Of a stretch of 64,000 bases of DNA, positions 5,410-35,373 are shown in pieces. Position 1 is the stretch's first letter; the number at the start of each line of letters is the position of its first letter. Both the position numbers and the translations under genes were made by a program. Under the pieces are notes generated by a model. It was given only the letters and a program-made list of their open reading frames with translations. It searched no databases and was not told where the DNA came from. Origin of the DNA: Alphaproteobacteria bacterium. Its GTDB lineage: Bacteria; Pseudomonadota; Alphaproteobacteria; Caulobacterales; Aquidulcibacteraceae. The stretch is taken from assembly GCA_016124655.1 (NCBI GenBank), contig WGNI01000002.1, forward strand, positions 310,001 through 374,000, written 5' to 3'.

Positions 5410-6684
5410 GTGGTGCGCGTCGACGCTTGAGATTGCGGAGGCTTCTAGGCTGCGCAGGCTCTTGCTGCGCCAGACGAACGCCGTCATCGCCAGAAGGATT
5501 GTCAGCGAGATCCAGAGCGGCGCGGTCGGGCCCAGGACGTCATAGGCGACGCCGCCGGTGAGCGGTGAAATGACAAAGCCCGCGCCATTTGAACCGACGA
5601 CCAGCCCTGCGACGGCGCCTTGCTCGTCGGGATGCACGGCCATGGATGCGCCGCCGGTGAAGCCTGGGCGCGCGAGCCCGAATCCCAATCCGCCCAGCAT
5701 TTGCGACAACAGAAGCGCGCTGAAGTTGGGAGCCCAGAGCTGGACCGCAACGCTGATGCACAGGATGGCGCATCCCACCAGCATCAGACTGCGCGACCCG
5801 AACCGCAGCATCGGCAGTATGGCCATTTGTGTGGTCAGCATGGCGAGCGCCGCCACGACGAATCCAGCAGCGGCGAGCTCTGCGCCGCGCGCGCCGGCGA
5901 CGTCGAGCCGGTCCATCACGTAGAGCGTGTAGACTTGGCCGAGGGTCCCGGTGATCACCGACAAAAACACGCCAAAGATGATGTAGGCGGCGACGCGGGG
6001 ATCGCCGGCGAGGCGCCAGGTGTCCATGAAATTGGGCGTTGGGCCCGCCGCTTCCCGCGGCCCGCGGCGCTCGGGAAGGAAGCGCATCAATACGGCCGCG
6101 GCGACAAACGCCAGCACCGCGGTGAGCGCGATCGGGAAGATCAACCCCATCTGCGCGGCGAGCACCGCGCAAGTCGCTGGACCGACCGCGCCGCCGACCG
6201 CGAAGGCGGAGGACAACAAGGCCAGCTCATGCGTGCGCTCGGCCATTGTGGTGCGATCGGCGACATAGGCCTGCGCGGCCGGATTGGCTGCGGAGCCGAC
6301 CATGCCGAAGATGGCGCGCGTCAGCATCAGACCGAAGAACACCGCTGCGCCCTGGATTACGGCGAAGACGCCGGCGGTGGCGACCAGCGCGAAGCCCGTC
6401 ATTGAGACGCCGTATGCAAACAGCCCAAGAGCAACGATCGGCTTACGGCCGAAGCGGTCGCTCATGCGGCCCCAGATCGGGCTCGCGAACACCCAGGCCA
6501 AGGCCGAGAGGGAGAAGATCCAGCCGACGGAGGCGTCGGGCAGATCCAGCCGCCGCACGAGCGGCGGCAGCAGCGGGAAGAGCATCGAATTGCCGAAGCC
6601 CACCACGAACAGCGAACCGTAAAGCAAATAGAAACGCTTGCGCCGCTCCTCGGGGGGCAGATCCGGCGCGGCGACGTCGGCCAT
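5407..6684 (-). CDS. MFS transporter, DHA1/TetA-like drug or metabolite exporter
   Basis: A 12-helix major facilitator of 425 residues. The N-terminal half shows the MFS loop motif as GRMSDRFGRKPIV between helices 2 and 3, and GSAANPAAQAYVADRT around helix 5, both typical of the TetA-like proton antiporters. The start at 6684 (MADVAAPDLPP) gives a normal short cytoplasmic tail; upstream in-frame ATGs would add a Cys/Arg-rich tail that looks non-coding. The substrate cannot be read from sequence. The gene faces the transglycosylase and shares its stop with the inverted repeat at 5358-5409; its promoter must lie in the 128 bases shared divergently with motA. Confidence 0.8.
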   Translation of the reverse strand: MADVAAPDLPPEERRKRFYLLYGSLFVVGFGNSMLFPLLPPLVRRLDLPDASVGWIFSLSALAWVFASPIWGRMSDRFGRKPIVALGLFAYGVSMTGFALVATAGVFAVIQGAAVFFGLMLTRAIFGMVGSAANPAAQAYVADRTTMAERTHELALLSSAFAVGGAVGPATCAVLAAQMGLIFPIALTAVLAFVAAAVLMRFLPERRGPREAAGPTPNFMDTWRLAGDPRVAAYIIFGVFLSVITGTLGQVYTLYVMDRLDVAGARGAELAAAGFVVAALAMLTTQMAILPMLRFGSRSLMLVGCAILCISVAVQLWAPNFSALLLSQMLGGLGFGLARPGFTGGASMAVHPDEQGAVAGLVVGSNGAGFVISPLTGGVAYDVLGPTAPLWISLTILLAMTAFVWRSKSLRSLEASAISSVDAHH

Positions 6685-30746: not shown

Positions 30747-32525
30747 TCAGAACACCCAGCGTCCCCGGATCGAGACGGAATGCGCCTCGACCTGTTCGCC
30801 GATGCGCGCCTCATAGCCCAGCCGGCCGGTGAAGCCATCCCGGATGAGAGCTGCGCCGACGCCCACAACGTTGGTCCAGTCCGAAAGCGCGGGAACGAGT
30901 TGATCAAACCCGCCGCCGCTGGCCGTGGTGATGCGGGCGATGTCGTCGTCATTGGCGAAGGCCCATTCGCCCCCCAATTGCAGCGATGGCCGCACCAGAC
31001 CCCATTGGGTGGTCCAATTGCCCTGGATGTCGACGCCGAGATCGGCGGTCGACACGTCGCTGGCAAAGCCGCCGACCGTGACCGCGCCCGGTCCCGTCTC
31101 GGTATAAGAATCGATCTTCACGTGGGTGTAGGTCGCGCCGACATGCGGCGTGACGTCCAGCTCGTCCGGGATCAACGCGAAGGTGCGGCTGGCCCGAACG
31201 CGCGCGGCGTACACATGGCCCTCAGGCTCGGCCGACGCTCTGTTCGGCGCGCCGGGGGTCAGGGCCACGACTGGACGGCTGGTGGTGTAGTCGGCCATGC
31301 CGGCGCTGATCACGCCATCGAGATGTACGGCGTGGGGCAGCTTCTTGGATGCGTAGCCGGCGATGGTGATGACTTCGTGGTCCCACGATTCATTGGTCCC
31401 GTCGGCGCTGCTTTCGCCATCGGAATAGGCGAGCGCAAAGCCAGCGAGCGTGGTGTCATTGACGTCGGCGTCCATGCCCACGATGAGCTGGTAGCCGTCG
31501 AAGTCGAAATTGGGCTGATCGGCGATCGCGTCGACATTGCCGTCCATGTAGGACGCGATGGCGAAGCCGCGCCGCGTGCCCGCGGCGTTTGACACTGTAA
31601 CCGGGGCGCCTTCGCCGCCGGCGCCGTCAAAGCCGCCGAACCGGCCGGACAGGCGGAACATCAGCGAGTCGGCGACGTGCAACGCCGCGATGCGTGATGC
31701 CACGGTGGGCGCGATGAGGAATTGACCGCGGCCGCTGCCGCCGAGCGCCTGTTGGATGAGGCAGCGTGCGAGCGTCTCCGCGAAGGCCTGCGCAATGGTT
31801 CCGCCGGCTCGCAATTGATTGAGGTCGGCCACGCAGCCGTCGGAGAACGACAAGACGAGTTGAGTGTAGTCCTCGAAGGTCGTGCCGGATGCAAAGCCGA
31901 AGGTCGGCGCGCCGAGTTCTTCGGGGACGCCGTCATTGTTGGCGTCGACATACGTGATCGTGCCGTCCGTCGCGATGCCGACTTCGCCGCCGGGACCATT
32001 GATCTCCTGATTGATGATGGCGCTGAGCGATGCGTTGGCGCTTTGCAGATTGGTGAGGATGACCTGGAAGGTCAGCGCATTGTCGGTGTTGTCGCGGTCT
32101 TCGTCGGTCACCAGGACGATCACCGCTGTGCTGGCGCCGCCAGAGAACGCGTAATTGTCCAACACGTATTGAATGCCGGCGTACCCGTCTTCGGTGCCGC
32201 CGCTGACTTCCAACGCGCCAGCGGCGGTCGCGAAATCGGTTGCGGATCCGAATGGCTGGCCGCCGATCAAGAACTGGCGCGGGACGACGGCGGAGTTGCC
32301 GTAACCCACAAGACCAAATTTGGCGATCTGCAGTCCGGCGGCCTGGAGTTGCTGCTCAAGGCTCGGCACGAAGGCCTGCAGGAATTGCTGTTCGCCCGAC
32401 ATGGAGCCGGACTCGTCGACGACAAAAACGATTTCCGCGCTGCGCTGCGCAAACGCGGCGGGCGCGCACGCCACCATCGCAAGAGCGCACACAAGCGCGC
32501 GCCATGCGGTCTTTACCAAAACCAT
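30747..32525 (-). CDS. VWA-domain autotransporter (type V secreted)
   Basis: A 592-residue protein. A signal peptide (about 1-27) is followed by a von Willebrand A domain (about 30-230) with an intact MIDAS DESGSMS (Asp37, Ser39, Ser41) and VIVLVTDEDRDN. A Ca-binding-like loop, VDANNDGVPEELG, comes next. From about residue 310 the protein is amphipathic beta with GFAIASYMDGN, TFALIPDELDVTPHVGATYT and FTGRLGYEARIGEQ, ending in an aromatic Phe (GRWVF) as outer-membrane barrels do. So the VWA part is probably exported through or displayed by its own barrel. It has its own terminator. Binding partner unknown. Confidence 0.83.
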   Translation of the reverse strand: MVLVKTAWRALVCALAMVACAPAAFAQRSAEIVFVVDESGSMSGEQQFLQAFVPSLEQQLQAAGLQIAKFGLVGYGNSAVVPRQFLIGGQPFGSATDFATAAGALEVSGGTEDGYAGIQYVLDNYAFSGGASTAVIVLVTDEDRDNTDNALTFQVILTNLQSANASLSAIINQEINGPGGEVGIATDGTITYVDANNDGVPEELGAPTFGFASGTTFEDYTQLVLSFSDGCVADLNQLRAGGTIAQAFAETLARCLIQQALGGSGRGQFLIAPTVASRIAALHVADSLMFRLSGRFGGFDGAGGEGAPVTVSNAAGTRRGFAIASYMDGNVDAIADQPNFDFDGYQLIVGMDADVNDTTLAGFALAYSDGESSADGTNESWDHEVITIAGYASKKLPHAVHLDGVISAGMADYTTSRPVVALTPGAPNRASAEPEGHVYAARVRASRTFALIPDELDVTPHVGATYTHVKIDSYTETGPGAVTVGGFASDVSTADLGVDIQGNWTTQWGLVRPSLQLGGEWAFANDDDIARITTASGGGFDQLVPALSDWTNVVGVGAALIRDGFTGRLGYEARIGEQVEAHSVSIRGRWVF

Positions 32526-32635
32526 GAGAGCCTCTCCCCTTGAGCAGGGGAAAGGCTCGCATGCATTTGACGAATTGAGAAACTATTCAGCGCGTAGGGC
32601 GAATGCAGATGCGCCCGGTTCGCGCCGAGGGGGAG

Positions 32636-32665
32636 AAAACCGGCCGGAGCGGGCGCTCCGGCCGG
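32636..32665 (-). terminator. Intrinsic terminator of the second TonB-dependent receptor
   Basis: CCGGCCGGAGC (32640-32650), loop GGGC, GCTCCGGCCGG (32655-32665): a perfect 11-bp stem. On the minus strand it is followed by TTTT (32639-32636) and lies 9 bases after the receptor stop codon. Confidence 0.85.
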
Positions 32666-32673
32666 ATAAACGC

Positions 32674-35148
32674 CTACCAGTTGTAGCTGATGCGGCCGTA
32701 CACGTACCGGCCCGAGCGGCCGAACGGGGAGTAGTTCGAGAACGGCGTGTTGGAGGTGGTGTTCAGGCTCGGAGGGGTTTGGGTGGGATATTCGTCGGTC
32801 ACGTTATCCGCCCCCACCGCGATGCGGATCGCATCGGTGATGTTCACGCGGCCTTCGAGATCGATCAGCACCTTTGGATCAAGGATCAGGTCGTTGGGCG
32901 CTGTCGTGCCGGGCGAGAGCACTTCGCCATAGCGCGTGGCGCGCGCAGTGGCGCCAAAACGGCCGAGCTCCCAGTCCACGCCGAAGGTATACTTGTCCTT
33001 GGGCGTGCCTTCTTCAAAGGTCAGAACGTTGATGCGATCGAACAGAACGGGCGCCGGGCTCAGCGCCGCCAATTGTTGCGTCGCTGGAACGCGCGTCACG
33101 TCGGTTTCGTTGAAGTTTGCGCCGAACGTGAAATCGAAATCGCCGAACGTGTCGGTGTTCAGCGCATAATTCGCCACCACATCGACGCCGTTGGTTTCGG
33201 TGTCGACGCCGTTGATGAAGAACCGGCCGCCGCCAATACCGACGAAGCCTTGGGCGATGAGGAAGTTGCGCACCGCCGTGGACGTCAGATTTTCCGAAAG
33301 AACAATGCGATTGGTGACGTCGATCCAGTAGGCGTCGACGGTGACGTTGAGGTCGCCGAAACGCAGAACTGCGCCAACCGCGTAGTTCACCGATTCTTCC
33401 GGCTCCAACGGCTGAGCGCCGAGCGCCGCGGCGACGGGATCGGTCGCCGGGAAGGTGGTGATGTCGAAGGGCACGCCGTTGATGAAGTTCGTCGAGGTGG
33501 CCGTGAAGAATTGCTGCTGCAGCGATGGGGCGCGGAAGCCGTTCTGCACCGATCCGCGCAAGGCGAAATTGTCGGTGAAGTCGTACCGCAGCGAAGCCTT
33601 GCCAGTCATTGTGTCGCCGAAGTCAGAATAGTGCTCGGCGCGCACCGCAAGCGAGGCCAGCAATTGCTCAGTCAGATTCGCTTCGACATCGACATAGGCG
33701 CCGATGGACTCGCGGTCTTCGTCGACCTCGTTCGAAGGCTGGAAGCCTGGGAACACCTGGGCGCCTGCCGCCGCGGGCGCGCCGCTTTGGGCCAGTCCGC
33801 CGCCATTGCGATAGGAATCCGGCTCCCCGGCAGTGATGGAATAGTTTTCCTGCCGCGCTTCCAGACCCATCGAGAGGTTCAGCGGGGACGCAAGCCCTGC
33901 GTCGAAGCTGCGCGTGCCGGAGAAGTTCAGCACGAGCTGGTCGTAGTCAAAGCCGCCGGCGTCAAACACCGTCTTGCTGGTCGCGCCGATGGAGGCGTTC
34001 AGCGTGTTGCGGATCGTGAAGTCCATGGAATTGTAGCCGTAGACGAGCGAGGTATCCATGTCCCACGCGCCCCATTGCCAGCGCGCGCCGCCGGCGGCGG
34101 AGTAATCCTCTACTTCGGGATTGATCAGCGGCAGGAAGCCGTCGGGATAGATCGAGGGGATGTTGCGGTCGTCGAGCGAACGGCGGAAGAAGCCCGCGGA
34201 CGTGGAATCGCGGTTCTGGTAGCTGGCCCAGCCGTACAATTCGACGCCGCTGGAGAGGTCATAACCAGCGTTGGCGAAGACCGTGTACTGCTCGATGCGC
34301 GGCTCGCCGTACCAGGCGTTGAGACGGTTGAATGTCGCTTCGCGCGGATCGAAATTGCCGGAGATGAGCGGATATTGCTGACGCCAATCCGGCGCGGTGC
34401 GGATGGTTTCTTCCTGGTCGAGATAGTCGCCGGAGATCGTGACGAAGCCGCGCTCCCCGATCGGCAGACCGATCCAGCCCGATACGTTGATCGTCTCGCC
34501 GTCATTCACGTCGCGCGACGCAAGATTGGCGACGCTCCAATTCGCGCCTGTGGGAACGGGCGCGACCAACGTGTCAACCGTGGTGATGCGTTCGCCGTAG
34601 GTCACATTCACGCCGCCGCCGGAATTGTTCTCGCGCAGCAGCACGTTGATGACGCCGGCGATGGCGTCGGAGCCATATTGCGCCGACGCGCCGTCGCGCA
34701 GCACCTGCACGGAGCGCACGGCCGTGTTGGGGATCGTGTTGAGGTCGACCGCGGCGGAGCCCCGGCCGATCGTGCCGTTAAGATTGACCAACGACGCGCT
34801 GTGCCGGCGCTTGGAATTCACCAGCACCAGCGTTTGATCCGGCCCGAGGCCGCGCAGGGTCGCGGGACGGATCGTGTCGGTGCCGTCCGCGAGGCCCGGA
34901 CGCGGGAAATTGAACGAGGGCAGCGCGACGGAGAGCGCCTGGCTCACTTCGTTAACGCCAGAGTTCGACAGCGTCTCGGCGCTGATCACGTCCACTGGCG
35001 CTGCGGTCGACAATGCAGAGCGATTTGCGACGCGCGTGCCGGTGACGACAATTTCGGTGTCATCGGTCTGCGCGAAGGCCGGCGCCAGGCCCACAACCGT
35101 CAATCCAGCGAGAAGCGCCGCCGGCGCCGTCTTCATCTTTTCGAACAT
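32674..35148 (-). CDS. TonB-dependent outer-membrane receptor
   Basis: An 824-residue receptor. A signal peptide (about 1-27) precedes the TonB box TEIVVTGTRV. The plug contains RPATLRGLGPDQTLVLVNSKRRH and VQVLRDGASAQYGSDAIAGVINV, of the subgroup that carries an Asn/Leu-Val-Asn-S-K-R-R signature and often imports organic substrates rather than siderophores. The barrel ends in YGRISYNW with a terminal aromatic residue. The ATG at 35148 was chosen; a TTG at 35157 is in frame but weaker. No regulator, sigma/anti-sigma pair or periplasmic enzyme adjoins, so the ligand is unknown. Confidence 0.94.
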   Translation of the reverse strand: MFEKMKTAPAALLAGLTVVGLAPAFAQTDDTEIVVTGTRVANRSALSTAAPVDVISAETLSNSGVNEVSQALSVALPSFNFPRPGLADGTDTIRPATLRGLGPDQTLVLVNSKRRHSASLVNLNGTIGRGSAAVDLNTIPNTAVRSVQVLRDGASAQYGSDAIAGVINVLLRENNSGGGVNVTYGERITTVDTLVAPVPTGANWSVANLASRDVNDGETINVSGWIGLPIGERGFVTISGDYLDQEETIRTAPDWRQQYPLISGNFDPREATFNRLNAWYGEPRIEQYTVFANAGYDLSSGVELYGWASYQNRDSTSAGFFRRSLDDRNIPSIYPDGFLPLINPEVEDYSAAGGARWQWGAWDMDTSLVYGYNSMDFTIRNTLNASIGATSKTVFDAGGFDYDQLVLNFSGTRSFDAGLASPLNLSMGLEARQENYSITAGEPDSYRNGGGLAQSGAPAAAGAQVFPGFQPSNEVDEDRESIGAYVDVEANLTEQLLASLAVRAEHYSDFGDTMTGKASLRYDFTDNFALRGSVQNGFRAPSLQQQFFTATSTNFINGVPFDITTFPATDPVAAALGAQPLEPEESVNYAVGAVLRFGDLNVTVDAYWIDVTNRIVLSENLTSTAVRNFLIAQGFVGIGGGRFFINGVDTETNGVDVVANYALNTDTFGDFDFTFGANFNETDVTRVPATQQLAALSPAPVLFDRINVLTFEEGTPKDKYTFGVDWELGRFGATARATRYGEVLSPGTTAPNDLILDPKVLIDLEGRVNITDAIRIAVGADNVTDEYPTQTPPSLNTTSNTPFSNYSPFGRSGRYVYGRISYNW

Positions 35149-35373
35149 CAGCAACAATCCTCTTCCGCCATCATTCGGGCTTGGCCCGGTTCGATTTCCC
35201 GAGGATTAACATTGACCCCGAGGCGGGAAGCTCAAGGGTCGCCATCGTCGCGATCCGGGTTTTATCTGGCAGTGTGGCCATGGCGCCGCAAAAAAGCCCT
35301 CAGACTGCGGAGCATTTGCGCAGAGCCGCTCGTTCTGCCTTTCCAATCGTTCAGGTTTGCGCGGGAAGCGCGC

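Follow-up and report, generated by a model that had tools for sequence, protein, structure and literature searches.

An autotransporter barrel bearing an integrin-like VWA head in an alphaproteobacterium: a candidate surface-displayed adhesin

The closest described system to the protein studied here is EstA of Pseudomonas aeruginosa (3kvn), in which, as in our protein, a globular alpha/beta passenger immediately precedes a 12-strand PF03797 barrel; EstA was the top match both by Foldseek and by sequence against the PDB, but its passenger is a GDSL esterase, unlike the MIDAS-bearing VWA domain found here. The NalP translocator (1uyn) likewise shares the barrel and pore helix (Z 33.9), though the NalP passenger is a protease and not a VWA domain. 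For the head alone, the nearest PDB relative by profile is the integrin alpha-2 I domain, which has the VWA fold and the MIDAS residues but is eukaryotic, is inserted in an integrin chain and lacks the TDEDRDNTD extension. Among bacteria, VWA proteins with PEP-CTERM tails from Gammaproteobacteria and other groups (L029, L031, L036, L048-L050 and L052) belong to the same VWA subfamily, have a signal peptide and are presumed to be surface displayed, but they rely on an exosortase anchor rather than a barrel and lack the Cys231-Cys255 pair described below. Giant proteins of Lysobacter and Gynuella also contain this subfamily, but with the VWA embedded among Ig/cadherin-like repeats. VWA is widespread as an adhesive domain in bacterial fibrillar adhesins (PMC8286594), and a large survey of autotransporters never mentions it in its main text (PMC3419190); our keyword searches of the non-subscription literature found no description of an autotransporter with a VWA passenger. 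Within that main text and those searches, the view of the initial annotation that compact VWA-autotransporters are not a well-described group holds, and a VWA head on an autotransporter barrel is apparently a rare, undescribed pairing of two well-known parts.

We analysed a window of 64,000 nucleotides from an Alphaproteobacteria bacterium (Aquidulcibacteraceae), in which the VWA-autotransporter gene occupies positions 30747..32525 of the minus strand, as do all features of the gene given below. This open reading frame encodes 592 residues and a stop, with no internal stop, and is present as a single copy in the genome. Its Pfam domains place a VWA N-terminal to a PF03797 barrel, bearing out the earlier claims that one polypeptide joins the two and that the passenger stands at the N-terminus of its own barrel, an order on which the structural model agrees. 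The architecture is far above chance and is retained in two full-length relatives with 58-59% identity, found in 2 of 100 related genomes; in all, eight members share it. Residues 1-26 (MVLVKTAWRALVCALAMVACAPAAFA; 32448..32525) look by eye like a signal peptide, with a basic n-region, a hydrophobic core and an AFA-Q cleavage site. AlphaFold2, run on an alignment of the protein with ten relatives (11 sequences), gave a model with mean pLDDT 75 and pTM 0.57, in which the relative placing of the two domains is uncertain, and in which a VWA fold covering 29-260 is followed by a helix at 271-299 and then by about 12 long strands from 318 to 591. A Foldseek search with this model ranked EstA first (E 3.5e-16), followed by the autotransporters AaaA (9oqa), EspP and NalP, and the list for the full model also included integrin alpha-2 I domains; by VIA-align, full-length EstA matched the model at Z 33.6 (5.9 A over 447 residues).

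The barrel spans residues 318-592 (30750..31574). Pfam Autotransporter PF03797 covered residues 327-572 (profile positions 8-255 of 255, E 1.8e-37), NCBIfam autotrans_barl matched residues 327-592, and the best match in the PDB sequence search, EstA, spanned residues 319-585. Structure prediction had been proposed as the check on a barrel in residues 310-592, and one is present there; the PF03797 match, the roughly 12 modelled strands and the alignment of NalP with barrel and helix (266-592; Z 33.9, 1.7 A, 277 residues, VIA-align) agree with the 12 strands originally put forward, and the last residue is indeed an aromatic Phe, F592. Ahead of the barrel, a linker or pore helix is predicted at residues 271-299 (31629..31715), within the NalP alignment, and pLDDT is below 50 over 294-313. 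By its barrel and modelled pore helix, the protein is predicted to be a monomeric classical (type Va) autotransporter. A barrel this large can form a channel, and FapF and COG4313 channels also align, but we consider an outer-membrane channel with its VWA kept in the periplasm very improbable, given the full PF03797 match, the pore helix and the ranking of NalP and EstA far above the channels (Z 34 versus about 20 or less).

An Asn-Asn cleavage site of the EspP/SPATE type was not found in the pore helix; the sole NN of the protein is at residue 196, inside the VWA, and the initial annotation had likewise reported no evident cleavage motif. Many autotransporters release their passenger, and a VWA cut from its barrel after export would act as a soluble protein, for which the low-confidence segments at 264-269 or 294-313 of the model could be cut by an outside protease. 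We think this unlikely to be what happens here: besides the missing Asn-Asn, the best full-length structural kin is EstA, an uncleaved autotransporter, and sister lineages tether the same head via PEP-CTERM.

The VWA domain itself (residues 28-262; 31740..32444) has a predicted integrin I-domain fold. Pfam VWA PF00092 covers residues 32-167 (E 6.7e-8, passing the cut-off), the model carries the domain past this Pfam core to about residue 260, and no NCBIfam family covers the head. Integrin I and VWF A1 domains matched the VWA part at Z of about 17 (VIA-align), and the best PDB match to a profile of the head was the integrin alpha-2 I domain (E 1.5e-4), in an alignment that spans the MIDAS region. 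MIDAS motif 1, D37-E-S39-G-S41 (32403..32417), is near-invariant across 12 relatives (90% or more), apart from a fragment that lacks the region; motif 2, T111 of GGTEDG (32193..32195), is invariant in the alignment; and motif 3, D141, lies at the start of the subfamily signature DEDRDNTD (141-148; 32082..32105), T140-D145 and T147 being invariant in the same alignment. The MIDAS earlier called intact from DESGSMS (37-43) is thus conserved across the subfamily at D37, S39, S41, T111 and D141. GGTEDG and TDEDRD(N)T form the signature of this subfamily in the alignment, and by its sequence the head is a member of an unnamed VWA subfamily with TDEDRDNTD as hallmark. The calcium-like loop also pointed out in the initial annotation is there, as DANNDGVPEE at residues 194-203 (31917..31946), but it is common only to the two nearest relatives, L002 and L003 (75%-identical heads), and is replaced in all others. 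We regard a calcium-loop function as doubtful, because the loop is not conserved beyond these two.

We suggest that the protein is, with somewhat better than even probability, an uncleaved EstA-like type Va autotransporter that displays a metal-dependent, adhesive, integrin-I-like VWA head. The signal peptide would direct Sec export, the C-terminal barrel, predicted to have 12 strands, would enter the outer membrane, presumably by BAM, and the VWA would pass outside while residues 271-299 stay behind as the predicted pore helix, a topology drawn from NalP and EstA. The passenger would remain attached to the barrel, because the pore helix lacks Asn-Asn. The MIDAS of the displayed head would then bind a divalent metal and, via the metal, an acidic group of a ligand, and such metal-mediated binding would let the protein work as an adhesin or capture receptor that is short and has no stalk. 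Display of the head at the cell surface is well supported by the domain matches and the model, and a barrel tail combined with an integrin-like head suggests that the head is probably carried on the surface to grip something; from the intact MIDAS and the integrin-like fold, we infer that adhesion is its likeliest use. Two points speak against an adhesin: bacteria have many VWA proteins with no adhesive role, and, lacking a stalk, the head would lie near the LPS layer, an uncommon position for an adhesin acting between cells. Should the adhesive reading be right, a short, integrin-like head without a stalk would be added to the autotransporter repertoire.

Relatives of the head were detected on three kinds of anchor. 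A survey of the same class, with a threshold of E 1e-15, found the head in 5 of 385 genomes: the window's, three that encode further autotransporters (L038, L039 and L040), and a fifth whose two VWA proteins, L041 and L042, are more distant, the first with a Pfam PEP-CTERM tail. Genome contigs gave two more autotransporters, L026 and L027; in L027, from Salibaculum, the VWA of the deposited record is interrupted by a single in-frame TAG (around 6196-6198), with the remaining frame well preserved. The head was present in 8 of 321 genomes of Photobacterium's class, where PEP-CTERM tails were confirmed by Pfam in L036, L048, L049, L050 and L052, the tail of L051 (IPLPTAW) resembles PEP-CTERM and was matched by no family model, L053 is a giant and L054 is distant. 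The Photobacterium relative L036 is split across two frames in its deposited contig, around 6264-6342. PEP-CTERM ends were found too in L029 and L031, and Pfam-confirmed PEP-CTERM relatives with the same head number seven. The giants of Lysobacter and Gynuella (L028, L032-L034 and L053) hold this head among Ig/cadherin-like repeats in frames of more than 2,300 residues, and in L028 and L032-L034 Rhs-like repeats come after the VWA. A scan of viral_contigs for a phage link yielded no relative, and a plasmid search returned only barrels.

Exosortase PF09721 was detected in all seven genomes scored with the PEP-CTERM-type form (that of L051 and the distant G157 included) and in one of the two giant-bearing genomes; it was absent from seven of the eight genomes with the autotransporter form, being present in G827. 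Across the window's class exosortase occurs in just 18 of 142 genomes, so only its presence is informative, and that is confounded with taxonomy. The window protein has no PEP-CTERM tail by Pfam, and no exosortase was found in its genome (G000, 85% complete). Occurrence of the same head on PEP-CTERM anchors, with exosortase in 7/7, or in giants is as expected of a surface-destined head, and the three anchor kinds offer a natural comparison of anchoring routes. In a tree of heads, the eight autotransporter heads formed one clade (support 100/99) and the giants another with weaker support (89/87); in a tree of barrels, the VWA barrels were not recovered as one clade and a single clade was not rejected (p-AU 0.30). 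The simplest reading is that the head joined the barrel once, a single join on which the barrel tree does not decide. The nearest non-VWA barrels sampled, on weak branches and with passengers assigned by eye, include GDSL-esterase (L021, L071) and phytase-like autotransporters, and the GDSL-esterase passengers are also globular. The window's genome contains a second, larger autotransporter (L067, G000:C5:450638-451354), with an open frame of 1165 aa and a non-VWA passenger.

Signal peptide aside, each of the eight autotransporter members has just two cysteines, separated by 24 or 25 residues (in the L027 fragment, counted only downstream of its in-frame stop). In the window protein these are Cys231 (31833..31835), at the start of the last VWA strand, and Cys255 (31761..31763), in the last VWA helix, and both positions are present in 8/8 members; the non-autotransporter members examined lack this pair, and several have a different one. 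Because the two cysteines strictly co-occur, they are predicted to form a disulfide, which probably ties the head's last strand to its last helix. The last helix of integrin I domains shifts with affinity, so such a bond could be a natural lock of the VWA head. The pair sits in the passenger part nearest the barrel, expected to be the first to emerge, and its 24-residue loop could hinder export if closed in the periplasm. The spacing is notable because T5SS cysteines usually lie just a few residues apart, according to the review from which we took the usual spacing in autotransporter passengers (PMC8151025), and being wider than usual it counts against our reading. A broader and more speculative proposal, which we hold only tentatively, is that the TDEDRDNTD VWA may be a portable surface head, re-anchored by exosortase, barrel or giant, which gained its disulfide in the autotransporter lineage and would there be a naturally locked I domain that is exported in spite of the wide loop. 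This strictly conserved wide pair offers a native case for asking which folded or cross-linked passengers autotransporters can export.

Directly upstream on the same strand lies a gene for a TonB-dependent receptor (32674-35157, minus strand) with its own terminator. That terminator-like hairpin was predicted at 32640..32665, also on the minus strand, and since it follows the receptor gene, the VWA gene is probably a separate unit; no neighbour was common to the window and any relative locus examined, and an operon with the receptor was rejected on account of the unshared neighbours and the intervening terminator. VWA domains often assemble complexes, and with a TonB receptor gene just upstream and no stalk on the protein, the displayed head could be a non-adhesin, either a docking or sensing platform for an envelope component or a means of metal or polysaccharide capture, for example with that receptor. 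We see this as possible but rather unlikely, in view of the terminator between the genes, the absence of the receptor beside relatives and the very different anchors of the subfamily, because of which no fixed partner is apparent. The uncleaved, adhesive autotransporter is our preferred reading.

The 5' leader contains a 13-bp hairpin (32528..32558, minus strand; z -4.5) directly upstream of the ATG, covering the Shine-Dalgarno-like AAGGGGAGAGG, which may restrain translation of the VWA gene. The leaders of L002, L003 and L026 showed no such hairpin, and its single genomic copy rules out a repeated palindrome. Away from the window, which has no such neighbours, L039 and L040 share neighbouring genes that by eye resemble pyridoxine synthesis (pdxJ) and holo-ACP synthase.
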